This document shows, in pieces, positions 15,328-22,323 of a stretch of DNA of 64,000 nt; the stretch's first letter is position 1, and each line of letters begins with the position of its first letter. Source of the DNA: Limnobacter litoralis (GTDB taxonomy: Bacteria; Pseudomonadota; Gammaproteobacteria; Burkholderiales; Burkholderiaceae_B). Made by a program: the position numbers and the translations under genes. Under the pieces are notes generated by a model, which ran no database searches, was not told the origin of the DNA, and saw nothing but the letters and a program-made list of their open reading frames with translations. Location: NCBI RefSeq assembly GCF_030160455.1, contig NZ_BSOJ01000009.1, positions 62,001 through 126,000 of the forward strand. Reading direction: 5' to 3'.

Positions 15328-18057
15328 ATGCAAAATTCTTCCAATAAAAAATGGCTGGGGCGATCTCCGTCGGAGTGGCTTTTCAGCCTGCCGATTTTCT
15401 CCCTGCTACTTCTGACACTGATCATTGGTACTGGCGAAATGGTACACGGGCAACTGTTGCGCCTCGGCGAGCGGATGTTTGGTGACCCTGCTCACAACGT
15501 TCAATATTTTTTGTTGCGTGCCGATCCGTCCAAGCCGACCTGTGATCGCAATCCTGACATTGATGCGCTGGTTCAAAAGCAGGTTGACGACGCCAAAAAT
15601 GCACCCAAAACCGACATGGACGCCTTGTTCGGTGACACGCCCATCGATCCGCAGGCCATTCGGGAATCTCTGGTTGCGGCCCAAAAGCTGTGCGAGGAAA
15701 GATACAACCTGTATGACAGGGTAAGTACACACATCACGCCCAGTGTGAAGTTTTACCGAAGCATTGAGACCGGATTCTTCGGGATTTTCAGGTTTGGTAC
15801 AGAAAATCGCCCTTTGATTTTGTTGCTTATGGTTGCTATTGCTGCCGTTTCAACCACATTGCAGTACCACCACATCAACCTTAGGCCACCCAGAACCAAA
15901 AAAGACTTCCAGGTGTACTCGCTGGCCATGCTGGCTGCGAACTTGTTGGTGTTCGTCTCCAGCGTGTATTACCTGAAACTCCAGTACGCCTCGGGTATCA
16001 AGGTTGAACATCCAGTCTTGAATTGGCTGACCATTCTGCTGTTTGCCGTGCTCAGTTTGATCAGTTTGCGGGATGTGCTGCGTGGCAACAAGAATGCGGA
16101 ACCTGGCGGAAGTTATGCCATGGGTTTGCTGTCCATTCCACTGTATGCGTTCATGGCTTTGAATGCGGGCATTAACTTTGTTCTGCAAGATTACACGGCG
16201 GGTCTGGCCATTTATTTTGGTCAGATTACTGAATTGTCGGGCATTTTCTTGAACTTGGCGCTGTACCTGTGGGCCGGTATGCTGTTGAAGCAAACCCGCG
16301 TGGTGTCGCTTTTCATGGACATCCTTCGTCCCTGGAAGCTACCACCCGAGGTGTTCACCTGGATCATCATGTTGGCGGCTGCTGTACCCACCGCATACAC
16401 AGGTGCCTCAGGTGTGTTCGTGATTGCCGCGGGTGCAGTGGTTTATCGGGAGGTGCTGGCCACCGGTGCCCGTCGTCACTTTGCCTTGGCTGCCACCGCC
16501 ATGTCCGGTTCTTTGGGTGTGGTGTTGCGCCCCTGTTTGCTGATCGTGGTGATTGCCGCGCTGAACAAGCAGGTGACGACCACCGAGCTGTATGGCTGGG
16601 GTCTGTTCGTCTTTATTTTGACGTCCACCATCTTCCTGTTCTACGCACTTCTGAAGTCAGAGGCGCGTGTCACAGAGCGAGCAACCGTCAAAGAGGCCCT
16701 GCCACAATCGCTTCGCGCATTGGTGCCAGTTTCTCCTTACATCGTGATTATGCTGGCCGTGGTGTACGGTTACGAGTACCTGCTTGACACCAAGCTGGAC
16801 GAGTTCACAGCACCAGTGATGTTGCCAGTGATCATGTTGTTTGTGATTATCTTCGACAAGCTGCGTGGCGGCCCTACCAAGGTAGGCGGCGACACTGTGG
16901 CTGAAAAGAAGAAGAATCAGGGCTTGGAACACGCGGTGCGAAGCGCCACCAACGAGACCATTGGTCACATTGGTGCGCTGATCATGTTGATGGCCTTGTC
17001 GGTCAGCGTGGGTGGTATGATCGAGCGTTCCGGCGTGATGGAGCTTGTTCCGCAAAACCTCGGAAACGTCTGGCTGGCACTGACCATGTTCATGTTCTTC
17101 CTGGTGTTTGTGGGCATGGTGATGGACCCGTTTGGTGCGGTTATTCTGGTGTCCGCAACCGTTGCACCGATCGCCTACAGCAACGGCATTCAACCCGTGC
17201 ACTTCTGGATGATCGTGGTGACAGCCTTTGAGTTGGGCTACCTGTCGCCACCCGTGGCATTGAACCAGTTGCTGGCCCGCCAGGTGGTGGGTGAGGAGCA
17301 GATGGACATTGCCGATGAGGAAACCAAGGGCAAGTCGTTCTACTACCGGCACGAGCGTTGGAATTTGCCAGTGATGGCGATGTTCACAGGCCTGCTGATT
17401 GTGACTTACGGTGGCCAGCTTTTGATCGAAAACTCGGACAAATTGCGCCCTGTCAGCCATTTCTTCGGTCTGGACCAGTTGAATCCCCCGCAATTTGACG
17501 ATTCGTCGTCTACGCCTGCTGCTGCACCAACGGCGCCAGCCGCTGCGACCGACGCATCTCTGGCTGCTCCGGCTGCAGAGCCAGCAATGCCAGCCGCAGC
17601 ACCTGGTGAGCCTGCCCCCGCTCCTGTGGCTCCCCCAGTTGCTGCGCCTGCGGCAGCCCCGGCTGCAGTTGCACCTGCTGCGCCAGCGGCCGCACCAAAA
17701 GTAGCGCCTCAGGAAGACGTTCAGTCAGTGATCAAAGACATCGTCGGAAATTGGGCAGCAGCCTGGAGTTCTCGGGATTTCAATGGCTACATTGGCTTTT
17801 ACTCACCCAACTTTGAAGTTCCGAAAGGAATGAGTCGCGCAAAATGGGAAGCCGACAGAAAGGCCAAGATCGAGAAGAAAAGCAACATCGAGGTGTCTAT
17901 CGACGACTTGACCGTGCAGGGGGTGACAGCCAAGGCTGTGGCCACCTTCACACAGCATTACAAGTCAGACAGCTACTCCGACACCACGAAAAAAGCGTTG
18001 ACCTTCGCGAAGGAAGCGGATGGCTGGAAAATCGTGAAGGAAGAGGCCGTGAAATAA
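15328..18057 (+). CDS. TRAP transporter large permease (DctM type) with C-terminal NTF2-like domain
   Basis: A 909-residue inner-membrane protein. TM1 (about residues 18-40) is followed by a loop of roughly 100 residues with two cysteines, then at least four more helices before the DctM-type core. This suggests a DctQ-like part fused to DctM. The core has SGVFVIAAGAVVYREVLATGARR, AMSGSLGVVLRPCLLIVVI and the conserved ELGYLSPPVALNQLL near residue 640. After the last helix comes an Ala/Pro-rich linker (about 725-790), then a globular domain of about 115 residues (GNWAAAWSSRDFNGYIGFYS to the end). That domain looks like the NTF2/SnoaL-like domain found at the C-terminus of some periplasmic L,D-transpeptidases. 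This fusion is not usual for TRAP permeases; its role is unknown. Confidence 0.85.
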   Translation: MQNSSNKKWLGRSPSEWLFSLPIFSLLLLTLIIGTGEMVHGQLLRLGERMFGDPAHNVQYFLLRADPSKPTCDRNPDIDALVQKQVDDAKNAPKTDMDALFGDTPIDPQAIRESLVAAQKLCEERYNLYDRVSTHITPSVKFYRSIETGFFGIFRFGTENRPLILLLMVAIAAVSTTLQYHHINLRPPRTKKDFQVYSLAMLAANLLVFVSSVYYLKLQYASGIKVEHPVLNWLTILLFAVLSLISLRDVLRGNKNAEPGGSYAMGLLSIPLYAFMALNAGINFVLQDYTAGLAIYFGQITELSGIFLNLALYLWAGMLLKQTRVVSLFMDILRPWKLPPEVFTWIIMLAAAVPTAYTGASGVFVIAAGAVVYREVLATGARRHFALAATAMSGSLGVVLRPCLLIVVIAALNKQVTTTELYGWGLFVFILTSTIFLFYALLKSEARVTERATVKEALPQSLRALVPVSPYIVIMLAVVYGYEYLLDTKLDEFTAPVMLPVIMLFVIIFDKLRGGPTKVGGDTVAEKKKNQGLEHAVRSATNETIGHIGALIMLMALSVSVGGMIERSGVMELVPQNLGNVWLALTMFMFFLVFVGMVMDPFGAVILVSATVAPIAYSNGIQPVHFWMIVVTAFELGYLSPPVALNQLLARQVVGEEQMDIADEETKGKSFYYRHERWNLPVMAMFTGLLIVTYGGQLLIENSDKLRPVSHFFGLDQLNPPQFDDSSSTPAAAPTAPAAATDASLAAPAAEPAMPAAAPGEPAPAPVAPPVAAPAAAPAAVAPAAPAAAPKVAPQEDVQSVIKDIVGNWAAAWSSRDFNGYIGFYSPNFEVPKGMSRAKWEADRKAKIEKKSNIEVSIDDLTVQGVTAKAVATFTQHYKSDSYSDTTKKALTFAKEADGWKIVKEEAVK

Positions 18058-18245: not shown

Positions 18246-18298
18246 TTGTAAATTTTACAACTGCTTTTTGGCCTTAATCGGATTCATTGAAGTTCAAT
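18246..18298 (+). promoter_or_regulatory. Two palindromes, candidate enhancer sites for a sigma-54 activator
   Basis: TTGTAAATTTTACAA (18246-18260) and ATTGAAGTTCAAT (18286-18298) are both perfect palindromes about a central base. Their centres lie at about -129 and -90 from the predicted sigma-54 start point. That is the normal distance for activator-binding sites, and an IHF site lies between them and the promoter. They differ in sequence, so they may bind different dimers. Confidence 0.5.
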
Positions 18299-18327
18299 AT
18301 TGGAGTTAGCCCAAAAAGATCTTTATA

Positions 18328-18340
18328 AATCAATGGTTTG
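18328..18340 (+). promoter_or_regulatory. IHF-binding site (consensus match)
   Basis: AATCAATGGTTTG matches the IHF consensus WATCAANNNNTTR at every position. It sits in AT-rich DNA between the palindromes and the -24/-12 promoter, where IHF bends DNA in many sigma-54 systems. Confidence 0.65.
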
Positions 18341-18355
18341 TTTTTTTTCTCGAGG

Positions 18356-18371
18356 TGGCACGTCGTCTGCA
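18356..18371 (+). promoter_or_regulatory. Sigma-54 (-24/-12) promoter upstream of the first ECF sigma gene
   Basis: TGGCACG-TCGT-CTGCA: the -24 element is perfect, the -12 element differs from TTGCA only in its first base, and GG-N10-GC spacing is exact. The predicted start is near 18382, 30 bases before the sigma-factor ATG at 18412. Confidence 0.8.
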
Positions 18372-18411
18372 CATTGTAAGGCAGACAACAACGCTAACTC
18401 AGGGGCGAATC

Positions 18412-19002
18412 ATGACAGACCACACACAGGCAAAAATTCAGATCCACTTCAAGGCCGAATCTTCGTTTCAGACTCTTGCAAATGCGCCAGTCATCGAAAG
18501 CCTAAAATCTCTGGAACAGCTTCTTCTTGCCCAACGCTCCAGACTGACCCACTTCATCCGTAAGCATTTGAAAAGAGACGAGTCGGTTGAAGACGTGCTT
18601 CAACAGACCCATATGGCGGCCTTTCGCAGCTGGGAACGATTTAGGGGCGAGTCTAAACCCGAAACCTGGTTGTTCGGGATTGCCATGAATTTGATTCGAA
18701 ACGCGCGTGCTCGGGACACGCATTCCAGCTGGATGGTCGATGACGCTGAAGAGCAGTTGCTGAATATACCGACTGAGCCGTGTGATGAGCCCATTGAACT
18801 ATTGCAACGTGCCCAGCAGATGGAGCTTCTGAGAGAGGCAATCTGCAATTTGCCCGCACGGATGCAGGCAGCAGTGCATCTGGTCTTTCTTGAGGGTCTT
18901 TCCTATCAGGATGCTGCCGAGGAACTCAATTTGCCAATCGGTACAATCCGCTCACGTCTTTCTCGTGCAAGGGATTTATTGCGCACTAATTTCGATATTT
19001 GA
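18412..19002 (+). CDS. ECF-type RNA polymerase sigma factor (sigma-54-controlled, HrpL-like position)
   Basis: A 196-residue sigma-70 family protein. Region 2 (about residues 45-105) includes VEDVLQQTHMAAFRSWERFRGESKPETWLFGIAMN. Region 4 (about 130-190) ends IGTIRSRLSRARDLLRTNF, a clear helix-turn-helix. There is no region 3, as in ECF factors. The ATG at 18412 has AGGGG upstream; the frame is open for 19 more codons but those precede or overlap the promoter. It is closely similar to the second sigma factor at 21449-22024. The gene is 3' to a sigma-54 promoter with an IHF site and palindromes, and 5' to a sigma-54 activator gene. This is the logic of HrpRS-HrpL in Pseudomonas and Erwinia. No anti-sigma gene is adjacent. 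Confidence 0.9.
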   Translation: MTDHTQAKIQIHFKAESSFQTLANAPVIESLKSLEQLLLAQRSRLTHFIRKHLKRDESVEDVLQQTHMAAFRSWERFRGESKPETWLFGIAMNLIRNARARDTHSSWMVDDAEEQLLNIPTEPCDEPIELLQRAQQMELLREAICNLPARMQAAVHLVFLEGLSYQDAAEELNLPIGTIRSRLSRARDLLRTNFDI

Positions 19003-19114
19003 ACTGAGGTTGTTAACCCGCCGAGGTGGGTATGACTAATTCCATTGAACGATAGAATCAATCACGAGTTTGACCGTTAATTAAACAGGACATGGTCAAC
19101 CAGGAACTTCGTGA

Positions 19115-20497
19115 ATGATGAATCTCACTTTGTGCCTGCACTCTGAAGAATTGAAAAGTCGCATTGTGGCGGCGGCTGTCATGATGCAGGCCAACGTTCG
19201 GGAATTGGATCTGGATTATTTGCTGAAAAGCAGGAATCTGGGCTGCGCTCAAATATTAATTGATCACGACGTTCAGCAGATTCGCAGACTTATCATGCAT
19301 CTGCAGGCTTTGGGTGTGGATCCCAGAAGACAGGTTATTCGCTTTATTGACAAGCCATGGCACGCCTACGTCTATCACGACATTCCCATCTTTGCATCCA
19401 TTGTCAATCCACCTGATCCCATTGCTGCGGTTGAAGTCATTCGGAAGTTACAGAGTGCTGTGCCTTTCGCAAAGCAACTGACCGCTTCAGACACCGACAT
19501 GCCACAGTCGGTGTCAGATCCTTTGGATGAGCCCTTTGTGCAGTCGTCGGCGATGCGTCGGACGGTCGAGCAGCTGAAGAAACTGGCAGGCCTGTCGGTT
19601 GATACAATCTTGATGGGTGAAACAGGGGTGGGTAAAGACACGTGTGCATTGTGGCTGCATGAAAAGTCAGGCTTGAAAGGTGCATTTGTACATGTCAATT
19701 GCGCGGCCTTGCCCGAACAGTTGTTTGAGTCGGAATTGTTTGGCGTCACCGCTGGTGCATTCACTGGTGCACAGAAGGATCGGGCCGGCAAGCTCGAACT
19801 GGCTCATCAAGGTACCCTTTACCTGGATGAAATTGACAGCATGCCGTTGGCCTGTCAGGCCAAGCTGTTGAACGCACTTCAGTACCGCGGCGCAACCCGT
19901 CTGGGTGCGGTGAAGCCCTACACCTCAGACTTTCGGGTAATTGCGTCAACCAAGGTTGATTTTGAATCGCTTATCCGTCAGGGTAGGTTTCGTGAAGATC
20001 TGTATTTCAGGCTCAATATCTCCAAAATTCACATTCCTGCTCTTCGTGAAAGACTGGACGATCTGATCCCTCTTTACCTTCATTTTTTGAAACTTGCAGC
20101 GGAGGCATTCAAACTTCCAGAACCTTGTTTAGTCCCGACCGACTGGGATAGATTGCTGGCGCATCCATGGCGTGGCAATGTAAGGGAACTAAAGGCCCAT
20201 GCACAGCGTTTCGTCCTCGGCCTGGATTTATGGGGTGCCGAAAAGGACTCTGAAGGTGAGGGGCTGAAGGATCGTTTGACCCAATTTGAGCGCATGATCA
20301 TTGAGCAGACTTTGCGCCAGTGCGATGGATGTACAAAAAAGACCAGTGCAGTCCTCAAAATTCCCTTGCACTCGCTTTACTACCGCTTGCGCAGACTGGG
20401 TATACCCATCGAAGATTCGCAAGGGCTCGCCTCCGAAGCCAGTGGGTCTCAGGGTGAGGGGAACTCTTTGACGTATCTGGACACTCAAGGTTATTAG
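19115..20497 (+). CDS. Sigma-54-dependent activator (bacterial enhancer-binding protein) without canonical receiver
   Basis: A 460-residue AAA+ activator that would remodel sigma-54 polymerase. It has Walker A GETGVGKD (168-175), the sigma-54 contact loop GAFTGA intact at 214-219, Walker B LYLDEID (235-241), an arginine-rich sensor segment and a C-terminal Fis-type helix-turn-helix (about 395-435). The N-terminal 115 residues look like an alpha/beta domain with a receiver-like strand (QILIDHD) but lack the acidic pair and the lysine of true receivers. It is therefore probably not phosphorylated, and may be controlled by a partner protein or simply by its level. It follows the sigma-factor gene by 112 bases. 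An inverted repeat ATTGA-N9-TCAAT (19044-19062) lies upstream. Confidence 0.9.
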   Translation: MMNLTLCLHSEELKSRIVAAAVMMQANVRELDLDYLLKSRNLGCAQILIDHDVQQIRRLIMHLQALGVDPRRQVIRFIDKPWHAYVYHDIPIFASIVNPPDPIAAVEVIRKLQSAVPFAKQLTASDTDMPQSVSDPLDEPFVQSSAMRRTVEQLKKLAGLSVDTILMGETGVGKDTCALWLHEKSGLKGAFVHVNCAALPEQLFESELFGVTAGAFTGAQKDRAGKLELAHQGTLYLDEIDSMPLACQAKLLNALQYRGATRLGAVKPYTSDFRVIASTKVDFESLIRQGRFREDLYFRLNISKIHIPALRERLDDLIPLYLHFLKLAAEAFKLPEPCLVPTDWDRLLAHPWRGNVRELKAHAQRFVLGLDLWGAEKDSEGEGLKDRLTQFERMIIEQTLRQCDGCTKKTSAVLKIPLHSLYYRLRRLGIPIEDSQGLASEASGSQGEGNSLTYLDTQGY

Positions 20498-20516: not shown

Positions 20517-20699
20517 ATGCAAATAAATCCAGGTGATTCAGTGTCGAGTGCACGTTCCGGTTCCACCGATCCGGCGTCGATTCTTCAGCGCTTTCGTCAG
20601 GACTTGAATGCCCTGCGCATGAAGCCCCTTCGAGTGGTGCCCAATACCCCTTTGAAGTCTCAAAGCGACGAAATGAATTTCGACGTGGGAATTCACTGA
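20517..20699 (+). CDS. Small unknown protein of the sigma island
   Basis: A 60-residue hydrophilic protein beginning MQINPGDSVSSARSG, with no signal peptide, membrane segment or known motif. It starts 19 bases after the activator gene and its TGA stop directly abuts the ATG of the next gene, so the two are translationally coupled. The ATG has a weak ribosome-binding site; a GTG at 20541 preceded by AGGTG is an alternative giving 52 residues. I do not recognise a family. Its place between a sigma-54 activator and a chaperone-like gene suggests a regulatory or secretion-linked job, which is inference. Confidence 0.55.
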   Translation: MQINPGDSVSSARSGSTDPASILQRFRQDLNALRMKPLRVVPNTPLKSQSDEMNFDVGIH

Positions 20700-21005
20700 A
20701 TGACCGAATACATCGAACCGTCGTTTGGTGTTTTCAGGGTTGAGTTGCTTCCTCAGCCCTCATCAGGTTTGCGCCTCTTGTTACAGCTTGATTATTACCA
20801 GAGCAACTGTCTGCGTATGTGGCTGGACATGCGATGGCAATCTTCGTCATTGCGAAACACAACCTTGCTGTTGCAGAAGCCAGGTCAGTTGGTGATTCAC
20901 AAGACAATACCTGAGTCAGCTTCTGGCAAACCCGCTGAACTTCTGAAGCAGTGGAGTACGGAAGTGACGCGACAGTTTAATTTGTTCATCAACAAACGTC
21001 GTTAG
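20700..21005 (+). CDS. Unknown 101-residue protein of the sigma island
   Basis: Begins MTEYIEPSFGVFRVELLPQP and contains a predicted beta-rich first half (LRLLLQLDYY, CLRMWLDMRW) and a helical end (LLKQWSTEVTRQFNLFINKRR). No signal peptide or membrane helix. The ATG is immediately after the stop of the 60-residue gene and is preceded by TGGGAA. It converges on the chaperone-like gene with 13 bases between. I do not recognise the family. It may be a small regulator or secretion accessory protein; nothing in the sequence proves this. Confidence 0.65.
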   Translation: MTEYIEPSFGVFRVELLPQPSSGLRLLLQLDYYQSNCLRMWLDMRWQSSSLRNTTLLLQKPGQLVIHKTIPESASGKPAELLKQWSTEVTRQFNLFINKRR

Positions 21006-21018
21006 TCACTCATTCTGA

Positions 21019-21444
21019 TCAGCTTTTTTCCAAAAAAGTTTTCTTGAACACAAAGCTGAAGTTTAAAAAATTCTGGAATTGCCCCGCGCAGCGTTCTGCA
21101 GTTTCTGAGGGGCCAATTTCAATGACATGCCGCAGACAGCCGTCATGATCCGACACGGAAAGTGAGCTGCCTTCTGGCGCTTCTGTTTGAACTTCGCAAT
21201 ACAATTGCATGGCTTTAAGCAGTTGGTTTTCTTGTGCACTCAGACTTTTGCCCATCAAGCAAATGCGAGCGCTCACCCTGCATGCCTGATCGGGTAGTTC
21301 CACCAGTTCGATGACGAAGTGATGTTCAAATGTGATTCGATACGCGTCTTGATTGGCATTCAATAGCGCCTTGTCGTCGGCATCCAGTTCCAGGAATTCG
21401 AGGATGGCTCGAAGCGGCGACTTGAGTTGGGTGCTGGCTGTCAC
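21019..21444 (-). CDS. Protein resembling CesT/SycE-type secretion chaperones
   Basis: A 141-residue acidic protein with a GTG start four bases after the stop of the upstream sigma gene, so it is certainly in that operon. Size and layout fit the CesT/SycE class of type III secretion chaperones. A helix (LRAILEFLELDA) is followed by strands YRITFEHHFVIELVEL and RVSARICLMG, a helix ENQLLKAMQL, strands SSLSVSDHDGCLRHVIEI and a long C-terminal helix SETAERCAGQFQNFLNFSF. This is a fold-level resemblance judged by eye; sequence identity to known chaperones would be low. If not a chaperone, it could be an anti-sigma or co-regulator of the sigma factor it is cotranscribed with. Confidence 0.6.
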   Translation of the reverse strand: MTASTQLKSPLRAILEFLELDADDKALLNANQDAYRITFEHHFVIELVELPDQACRVSARICLMGKSLSAQENQLLKAMQLYCEVQTEAPEGSSLSVSDHDGCLRHVIEIGPSETAERCAGQFQNFLNFSFVFKKTFLEKS

Positions 21445-21448
21445 GCGA

Positions 21449-22024
21449 CTATTCCATGTGCATGTCGTAAATGAACTTAAGTTGAGCTCGAGACCTTGAA
21501 ATTCTTGAGCGAACTGTTCCGATTGGTATGCCCAGTAAATCTGCCGCCTCTTGATAGGAGTTGCCGTGCTTCACGACTAGCATCAGTGTGTCTTTTAAGT
21601 CGGTGGGCAGCTTGTCGATGGCGGTGTCTAGCGACACACTGAATTCATTTTTCATGCAAATCTGTATGGGATCTGCACCTTCAGCCTGTTCCAGCTCAAG
21701 TGATTCATCGGTCGTGAAGTTAAAGCGGTATTGTGGAGACCTTCTGGCCACGTTTCGGATGATGTTCAGGGCAATGCCAAACAGCCAGGTTTCTCGTTTT
21801 GAGTCGCCTCGGAAGTTGTCCCAACTGCAGTAGGCCTCAATCAGGGTTTGCTGAAAGAGATCCTCGACAGCACTTTCATCGCGAAAGTGTTTGGTGATGA
21901 AGTTTTTGAGTCGCTTTTCCTGCTTGGCCATGAGCAATTCAAAATCGGAGCGCATCGATGTGGATGCAGTTTGCGCACATCGTTTCACGGAGGTGATTTT
22001 TAACTTCGGTTGGGCTTGTGTCAT
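21449..22024 (-). CDS. Second ECF-type RNA polymerase sigma factor
   Basis: A 191-residue sigma-70 family protein. Region 2 includes VEDLFQQTLIEAYCSWDNFRGDSKRETWLFGIALN and region 4 ends IPIGTVRSRISRSRAQLKFIY. It is a clear paralogue of the sigma factor at 18412-19002: long stretches of region 2 match with small changes, while the N-termini differ. The start ATG at 22024 has a strong GGGGTGA; an upstream in-frame ATG (22060) lacks one. The chaperone-like gene follows after four bases. It points toward the activator and sigma genes, so the two sigma factors bracket the island. A possible -24/-12 promoter lies about 50 bases upstream. Confidence 0.9.
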   Translation of the reverse strand: MTQAQPKLKITSVKRCAQTASTSMRSDFELLMAKQEKRLKNFITKHFRDESAVEDLFQQTLIEAYCSWDNFRGDSKRETWLFGIALNIIRNVARRSPQYRFNFTTDESLELEQAEGADPIQICMKNEFSVSLDTAIDKLPTDLKDTLMLVVKHGNSYQEAADLLGIPIGTVRSRISRSRAQLKFIYDMHME

Positions 22025-22323
22025 TTCACCCCCCCTAGTGTTGCAGTCCAGAAGATTCATGGGAATGGAGTCGCAGCAAAGTGAATACCTTTATAGAGTA
22101 GCAACGCGGATAAAAATGCCCATCTGGTGTAATCAGAAAGGATGATTCAAGGAGCAAAAGCTTTTCATGACATCCAGTTTCTGATAACGAAGAGAATTTC
22201 CCTCACAGACTCCATTGCTGGGTGGAATCTTGTGGATGAATGGTTCCATTGAAGGAATTGCCGGGGTGTATGTTGCTATCATTGGATAGCTTTAAATCCA
22301 CTTACTCACCAGTCAAATCTCAC
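22025..22323. other. Divergent intergenic region between second sigma gene and parE
   Basis: 299 bases. It holds the candidate minus-strand sigma-54 promoter (22076-22089), the palindrome AAAAGCTTTT (22156-22165 region), TTCC-N6-GGAA upstream of parE, and a perfect hairpin GCTATC-ATTG-GATAGC (22275-22290) in the parE leader. No small gene is convincing. Confidence 0.4.
22076..22089 (-). promoter_or_regulatory. Possible sigma-54 promoter of the second sigma gene
   Basis: Read on the minus strand, AGG-TATTCACTT-TGCT gives GG-N10-GC with a good -12 element (TTTGCT) but a weak -24 element (AGGTAT against TGGCAC). The start point would be near 22064, 40 bases before the ATG. No consensus IHF site is present nearby, unlike the first sigma gene. 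Confidence 0.35.

Follow-up and report, generated by a model that had tools for sequence, protein, structure and literature searches.

The DNA analysed here (the window) is a stretch of 64,000 nucleotides of Limnobacter litoralis contig NZ_BSOJ01000009.1 (G000:C9 in our set), which belongs to a 3.01-Mb genome. It contains a regulatory cassette that encodes two sigma factors of the extracytoplasmic function (ECF) class, ECF1 and ECF2, a sigma-54 activator and the small proteins orf60, orf101 and orf141, and that is probably linked to type III secretion in the genus. The gene order is ECF1 (+), activator (+), orf60 (+), orf101 (+), orf141 (-), ECF2 (-) (Table 1). A tripartite ATP-independent periplasmic (TRAP) transporter gene and a tRNA-Arg gene flank the cassette on one side; the flanking gene on the other side, beyond ECF2, we take to be parE. 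The original prediction had read ECF1, its upstream region and the activator gene as an HrpRS/HrpL-like cascade and had overlooked ECF2, the second HrpL-like ECF gene of the same locus, together with the class I chaperone fold of orf141 and the two hrp-box-like promoters nearby.

Table 1. Features of the cassette, in window coordinates (aa, amino acids; IHF, integration host factor; HTH, helix-turn-helix; T3SS, type III secretion system; AF2, AlphaFold2)
Feature	Position	Strand	Basis or remark
Palindrome 1, TTGTAAATTTTACAA, 7-bp arms, candidate activator site	18246..18260		exact in sequence
Palindrome 2, ATTGAAGTTCAAT, 6-bp arms, candidate activator site	18286..18298		exact in sequence
IHF-like site AATCAATGGTTTG	18328..18340	+	matches consensus WATCAANNNNTTR
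Sigma-54 promoter of ECF1, TGGCACGTCGTCTGCA, -24 TGGCAC, -12 TGCA	18356..18371	+	motif search and alignment
ECF1, HrpL-like ECF sigma, 196 aa	18412..19002	+	Pfam sigma70 regions 2 and 4; tree with T3SS-linked ECFs
Sigma-54 activator, 460 aa: receiver-like N-domain (modelled), AAA+ with GAFTGA, Fis-type HTH	19115..20497	+	Pfam, alignment, model
Hrp-box-like promoter GGAACT-N15-ACACTCA for orf60-orf101	20460..20487	+	17.6 bits, second best of window
orf60, small Ser-rich protein, possible secreted regulator	20517..20699	+	homologues of 68-76 aa in 12/13 relatives; L046 reading doubtful
orf101, conserved protein with YxSxCxRxWL stretch	20700..21005	+	13/13 Limnobacter cassettes
orf141, class I T3SS chaperone fold (VecA/ExsC/SicP-like)	21019..21444	-	AF2 and Foldseek
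ECF2, second HrpL-like ECF sigma	21449..22060	-	Pfam, plasmid matches, tree
Hrp box GGAACC-N16-CCACCCA upstream of ECF2-orf141	22219..22247	-	19.5 bits, best of window

The cassette and the promoter of ECF1

The activator was found at high identity (51-60%) in 13 of the 15 other Limnobacter genomes; the two without a match, G002 and G010, are 85% and 65% complete. All 13 share the order ECF1, activator, orf101, orf141, ECF2, parE. A genome of another genus, G027, encodes an activator homologue at 44% identity, and its locus (L047) holds ECF1, activator and parE only. Because it has neither ECF2 nor orf101, it does not enter the comparisons of these two genes. The footprinting upstream of ECF2 and the protein-rate test omit L036 and L039, which nearly duplicate L038. 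The N-terminal domain of the activator is encoded in 12 loci, namely those of L. parvus, L. alexandrii, L. humi, Limnobacter sp. MED105, 130 and P1 and six metagenome-assembled genomes (MAGs).

Two perfect palindromes, a full-consensus IHF site and a -24/-12 promoter had been predicted ahead of an ECF sigma gene, and all of them, with the sigma gene itself, are present (Table 1). The promoter is the sole exact match to TGGCAY-N5-YTGCA on both strands of the window. With one mismatch allowed there are nine matches against 10.75 expected, so the motif taken alone is weak. IHF-like sites number five against 1.9 expected, a count reached by 5 of 100 shuffles. In the aligned upstream regions TGGCA occurs in 15/15 and the -12 TGCA in 14/15 (L046 has TCGCA instead). 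With A or G allowed at one position, the window and 11 of 14 relatives have an IHF-like site at an offset of exactly 28 bp upstream of the -24 element (it is missing at this offset in L044, L046 and L047). Judged from these alignments, conservation of the two elements among the Limnobacter relatives is beyond chance. A single copy of rpoN is present in the window genome. A -24/-12 promoter and an IHF site upstream of an ECF gene are also the arrangement of the Pseudomonas syringae HrpRS-sigma-54-HrpL cascade (PMC5263251).

A 7-bp palindrome with a further 6-bp one occurs in 0.7% of Markov sequences modelled on the region. Palindromes with 6-bp arms are absent from that place in 11 of 14 relatives, and L041, L042 and L046 have different ones. 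The upstream alignment thus rules out the window palindromes as conserved activator sites; they are specific to the window. A different element, GAGYTAATCAA, precedes the IHF site in 12 of 14 relatives and may be the real activator site; in the window (18303-18319) it is altered to GAGTTAGCCCA. Between ECF1 and the activator gene, at 19033-19055, lies a TGACTAATTCCAAG-like stretch that recurs in similar form in 9 of the 12 relatives aligned.

Sigma factors, activator and small proteins

Plasmid sequences matching ECF1 included ECFs of Pseudomonas, Pantoea and Enterobacter, and those matching ECF2 came, among others, from Pantoea and Enterobacter. Three of the matched plasmid ECFs were examined in context and all adjoin T3SS genes. 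In a tree of 20 rows, ECF1, ECF2, these three ECFs (two of them nearly identical) and the Azospirillum and T6SS (type VI secretion system)-linked Eleftheria ECFs split from four generic ECFs with support of 100/99; inner forks were partly weak and long branches were flagged. The long ECF1 branch of this tree was not supported by a fixed-topology rate test. ECF1 and ECF2 have near-identical region 4 stretches. Among relatives, local identity is 66-74% for ECF2 and 54-63% for ECF1. A later ATG in ECF2, at 22024, seems to have the better ribosome site.

In the activator, Pfam recognizes an AAA+ domain (from residue 143), its lid and a Fis-type HTH, and the GAFTGA loop predicted to be intact is found at residues 214-219. 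The N-terminal part has no Pfam match, receiver included, and to that extent the predicted lack of a canonical receiver holds. However, an alignment of 10 sequences shows its roughly 130 residues to be conserved, and they were modelled as alternating strands and helices, with mean pLDDT (predicted local distance difference test) values of 75-88 for residues 1-80, 45 for 81-90, 65 and 76 within 91-110 and below 50 for 111-130. Structural alignments starting at residue 1 or 2 include chains of FleQ, VpsR, NtrX, NtrC1 and NtrC4, at root-mean-square deviations of 11-18 because the domains are placed differently; the comparison barely covered residues outside 129-379. We suggest from the model that this part is a pseudo-receiver. 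Residue 50, behind the third strand, is an Asp in nearly every sequence, so that phosphorylation may occur. HrpR/HrpS-type activators are not known to have a regulatory N-domain. The Limnobacter protein, with a conserved N-terminal domain modelled as receiver-like, does not share their architecture. Among the 15 plasmid relatives listed none is labelled HrpS, but 12 of the 15 are unlabelled; the first is from Eleftheria.

The orf141 gene begins within a few bases of the end of ECF2. Pfam and PDB sequence searches with orf141 gave nothing significant. Its AF2 model (mean pLDDT 87.4, 14 sequences) has the alpha-beta(3)-alpha-beta(2)-alpha fold of class I T3SS chaperones of about 110-150 aa, and all 17 Foldseek PDB matches with E <=1e-3, among them VecA, ExsC, SigE, SicP and SchA, are T3SS chaperones or their complexes. 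Weaker matches include non-T3SS proteins (2plg, 3cxj, 8q8o, YbjN), and AmyR/YbjN is described as having the same fold without a role in secretion (PMC5398634). The predicted fold of orf141 contradicts the earlier statement that the region has no visible secretion genes. For orf101 no Pfam or family match exceeded the cut-off; a profile match to orf141 was dismissed (13 aligned columns, probability 4.6).

In the window genome all five main genes of the cassette are open. The window branch takes a share of tree length of 0.249 for ECF1, 0.172 for the activator, 0.204 for ECF2, 0.134 for orf141 and 0.242 for orf101, compared with 0.212 for four neighbouring genes together (0.138-0.247 singly). 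Faster protein evolution of the cassette in this genome is thus not clearly seen; ECF1 barely exceeds the top control.

Hrp-box-like promoters and the type III secretion genes

Footprinting upstream of ECF2 revealed GGAACC and CACTCA elements, and the pattern GGAACC-N15..17-NCACNNA is found there in 13/13 relatives and in the window. A second box, for orf60-orf101, lies at the end of the activator gene; it scores at least 11 of 13 in 11/13 relatives and 11 in the window (L045, 9; L046, 10). A third, upstream of the gene of a 153-aa chaperone-like protein, scores 12 or 13 of 13 in 12/16 genomes; the low scorers are the own genome (10), G015 (11), G014 (9) and G002 (9). No homologue of the 153-aa protein gene was found in G027. 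The gene beside it is presumably htpG. As background, 49 of 3000 random 330-nt genomic stretches score at least 11. Promoters of this GGAACC-N15/16-CCAC type are those of HrpL (ECF32) sigmas, for which GGAACC-N15-CCACTCAAT is the quoted consensus (PMC3487950). A box identical to that consensus, at 24.7 bits, is found in the own genome at G000:C30:66660, followed after 35 nt by the ATG of a 411-codon gene. Homologues of this gene occur in 14 of the 15 other Limnobacter genomes (marginal in G015, E 5e-4; none in G002; the query began one codon before the adopted ATG). A box of at least 11 precedes 8 of the 14 scored loci, a second G010 match (L149) being left out. We suggest that the product is a secreted substrate.

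A matrix was built from 22 boxes of the relatives, none of which came from T3SS operons or from the window. Over the 64-kb window it ranks the ECF2 box first (19.5 bits), the orf60 box second (17.6) and a third site at 13.6 bits. It was then applied to the 150 nt upstream of sctV at 11 loci (10 relatives and the stump in the own genome described below), with 112 other genes as background (95th percentile 3.0, 99th 5.8, best 6.8 bits). Ten of the 11 loci reach at least 5.2 bits and six exceed the best of the other genes, although the relatives are not independent samples. Two gammaproteobacterial T3SS plasmids, one of Pantoea dispersa and one of Pseudomonas antarctica, have related ECF genes next to sctW and sctV; in either stretch examined the best site of the matrix lies in front of sctW (14.7 and 13.9 bits respectively). 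Further matrix sites in whole T3SS regions had no background control and were not counted.

T3SS markers are widespread in Limnobacter. In the G007 cluster SctV, SctR, SctC and SctJ exceed the NCBIfam cut-offs and SctD, SctN, SctQ, SctT and SctU fall below them; by Pfam, HrpE/SctL- and SseC-like proteins exceed the cut-offs and an SctI-like one does not. The genes run sctV, FHA protein, sctN, small protein, sctQ, sctR, sctS, sctT, sctU, an order that resembles the one on the P. dispersa plasmid. The cluster adjoins a MotAB-like pair and a gene that we take to be metH. SctS-like copies (E 1e-17 to 1e-21) are found in 13/16 Limnobacter genomes, SctJ over the cut-off in 13/17 and SctC in 11/17 genomes searched, and at least one T3SS marker in 14 of the 15 other Limnobacter genomes. 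No marker was found in G015 by SctS, SctJ, SctC and SctV searches, and no SctJ, SctC or non-flagellar SctV in G027. G015 is a MAG that is 93% complete; G027 is 97% complete. In the literature one study makes the Limnobacter T3SS a sister group of Hrp1 and nearest to H. seropedicae (PMC4224133), the MED105 row of one table has a 1 in the column taken to stand for T3SS (PMC2702493), and L. thiooxidans is credited with type III homologues that are possibly flagellar (PMC4557100). Nothing on regulation of the Limnobacter T3SS was found among the literature matches listed.

In the genome of the window, a metH-like gene is followed by 452 open codons of sctV (72.6% identical to G007). A motB-like gene whose match is confined to residues 4-132 of 265 starts at most 90 bp from the end of this stump, and the motA-like gene behind it lacks about residues 95-190 of 341. 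This scar (L048:11746-14303, on G000:C6) has its junction inside a 488-kb contig, away from the contig end; the corresponding break points in G007 are about 22 kb apart. A genome-wide search for sct/hrp genes turned up the sctV stump and no other T3SS apparatus: PF01313 gave one match, flagellar by its neighbours, TIGR01399 only FlhA and the stump, and neither SctJ nor SctC exceeded the cut-off. A T3SS elsewhere in this genome is ruled out by these searches. The sequence at the junction indicates that most of the T3SS cluster is deleted, and the loss looks recent because the stump is still open.

Some other loci deserve mention here. The MotA/MotB-OmpA-like pair that adjoins the T3SS in G007 (L055:7094-9003) carries a box of 19.7 bits, located 63 nt ahead of its motA-like gene, and a site of the same score is found in G009 (L057:814-841), with no ORF start assigned to it. 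The proton-channel pair may belong to a T3SS regulon. In G014 there are two strong FliQ-like matches and two FlhA-like genes (contigs C24, C25 and C27), and therefore perhaps two flagellar systems. In the 65% complete genome G010, sctV is split over frames with two stops (C93:6980-8336), either by an assembly error or as a pseudogene.

Role of the cassette

We consider it probable that the locus is the master regulatory cassette of the Limnobacter T3SS, kept here after most of the cluster was deleted. What remains would then be a sigma-54 to ECF cascade that appears intact and whose wiring resembles HrpRS/HrpL; it is read as a remnant because the sctV stump adjoins the cut motB-like gene and most relatives carry T3SS markers. 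The regulon in the genus appears to be the T3SS with chaperones and putative substrates. The anatomy of the promoter suggests that ECF1 is turned on by the neighbouring activator together with IHF and sigma-54. ECF1 and/or ECF2 would read the hrp-box-like promoters of ECF2-orf141, orf60-orf101, sctV, the chaperone-like gene, genes of putative secreted proteins and perhaps further T3SS operons. The products of orf141, orf60 and orf101 probably tie sigma or activator activity to secretion, a role that HrpG/HrpV and ExsC/ExsE play in other systems. In the HrpV/HrpG and ExsCDE modules the chaperone has two partners, one an anti-activator and the other secreted. As with ExsC/ExsE, of which a joint structure is among the Foldseek matches of orf141, and with HrpG/HrpV (PMC6069116), a class I chaperone fold is encoded together with T3SS regulators and a small Ser-rich candidate partner; no sequence match was found, and orf101 and orf60 are candidate partners only. 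In the genome of the window, deletion of about 22 kb of the cluster (by the G007 measure) would have spared the cassette with both its boxes and a single putative substrate gene that bears a box.

Several observations weigh against this interpretation. Four of the 10 sctV sites (5.2-5.5 bits) fall between the 95th and 99th background percentiles, and sctV of L061 has no site (-0.6 bits). In 60 simulated 64-kb windows the best site reached 17.6 bits in nine and the second best in two; because two such sites do arise in 2/60, the boxes of the window rest on their position and conservation. Strict box matches are not enriched in the own genome (3 versus 5 for the reversed pattern that served as control), and a looser pattern gave 18 versus 56. 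These counts are ruled out as a sign of a large regulon; over 16 Limnobacter genomes the strict pattern gave 54 versus 32. Two strict matches at G000:C1, beside what we take to be nadA and curlin genes, were treated as chance. In the own genome only weak sites stand at three other genes, with 10 of 13 at the chaperone-like homologue, 5.5 bits at the sctV stump and 5.3 bits at the motA-like gene. The cassette also persists in G015 and, as ECF1 and activator only, in G027, in neither of which a T3SS marker was seen. Finally, the YRF or HRF of the other Limnobacter ECF1s is replaced by SSW in the window ECF1, within the stretch that reads the -10 element.

The division of labour between the two sigma factors allows a different scheme, in which ECF2 is the functional HrpL and ECF1, with another promoter specificity, only triggers ECF2 or something else. 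This is a real contender, if somewhat short of an even chance: ECF2 is the more conserved of the two, its box is present in all 13 relatives and the window, and in G027 ECF1 stands without ECF2, without a T3SS marker and without an above-background box behind the activator gene. On the other hand, both ECFs group with T3SS-linked ECFs and are nearly the same in region 4, and it is ECF1 that occupies the sigma-54 promoter position of hrpL. If the T3SS was lost recently, the cassette may be a decaying relic without present function whose genes drift has yet to break, as the open sctV stump, the gap already present in the motA-like gene, the weak box at the chaperone-like homologue and the altered stretch of ECF1 would allow; we regard this as rather unlikely, given five open and not clearly accelerated genes, two cassette boxes kept and a putative substrate gene with a full-score box.

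A further view is that the cassette has a T3SS-independent core regulon, later tapped by the T3SS, and persists because this older job continues. The intact ECF1 and activator in G015 and in G027, and the lack of clear excess divergence on the window branch, favour it; however, missing markers in genomes that are 93% and 97% complete are weak evidence, a recent loss of the T3SS would likewise leave the rates unchanged, the fold of orf141 is that of T3SS chaperones, and the recurring boxes found sit at cassette, T3SS, chaperone-like or putative-substrate genes. We think this view unlikely. A new target regulon, as suggested in the original prediction, that is unrelated to secretion would fit the housekeeping flanks of the window and the absence of a T3SS apparatus from this genome, but is very improbable in the light of the chaperone fold within the cassette, the boxes at sctV of the relatives and the stump in this genome. 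The regulon need not be new.

The comparison with HrpRS/HrpL made in the original prediction was right in the promoter logic, the HrpL-like ECF and, through the boxes, the link to type III secretion; it does not extend to the HrpR/HrpS architecture. Because of the latter, and because only the sctV stump is kept and no T3SS is left here to control, we describe the cassette as a betaproteobacterial variant and not as HrpRS-HrpL proper. As in P. syringae, an IHF/sigma-54 promoter precedes the ECF gene, T3SS genes have promoters of the GGAACC/CCAC type (PMC5263251) and chaperone-fold proteins are found among the regulators (PMC6069116). Unlike P. syringae, Limnobacter has one activator with an N-terminal domain in place of the HrpR/HrpS pair and two HrpL-like sigmas in a cassette unlinked from the T3SS, and here the T3SS is deleted. 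Among Betaproteobacteria, HrpL of Herbaspirillum is likewise associated with GGAACC-N15-CCACTCAAT boxes; the system of Herbaspirillum rubrisubalbicans is reported without a sigma-54 promoter (PMC3487950). The ECF sigma BtrS of Bordetella controls T3SS genes in Burkholderiales as well but, unlike ECF1, is switched on by BvgA and not from a sigma-54 promoter (PMC7498569). What is new relative to the known wiring is that it is betaproteobacterial, unlinked from the T3SS and equipped with two HrpL-like sigmas. Known from plant-pathogenic Gammaproteobacteria, this sigma-54 to HrpL wiring is thereby extended to a betaproteobacterial genus. One lineage has, as a natural experiment, lost the machine and kept the switch, so that the remaining role of an orphaned master regulator becomes directly testable.

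On the Eleftheria terrae plasmid NZ_CP106952.1 (607726-616187, L165) a HrpL-like ECF gene and two sigma-54 activator genes lie beside T6SS genes. A 15.9-bit site of the Limnobacter matrix is found upstream of tssA, and in one of these activators no match to GAFTGA was found. The locus is a possible reuse of the module for a T6SS. With a related ECF and two activators next to a T6SS and a hrp-box-like site, it would fit a broader and, we think, quite doubtful scheme, in which the sigma-54/double-ECF cascade is an independent module, kept intact in lineages that lack a T3SS because it runs an older regulon, and secretion systems are plug-in targets recruited via hrp boxes.

Outside the cassette, the window encodes at 15328-18057 a TRAP transporter protein of the DctM type that has a proline/alanine-rich linker and, at its C terminus, a Cds6_C NTF2-like domain.

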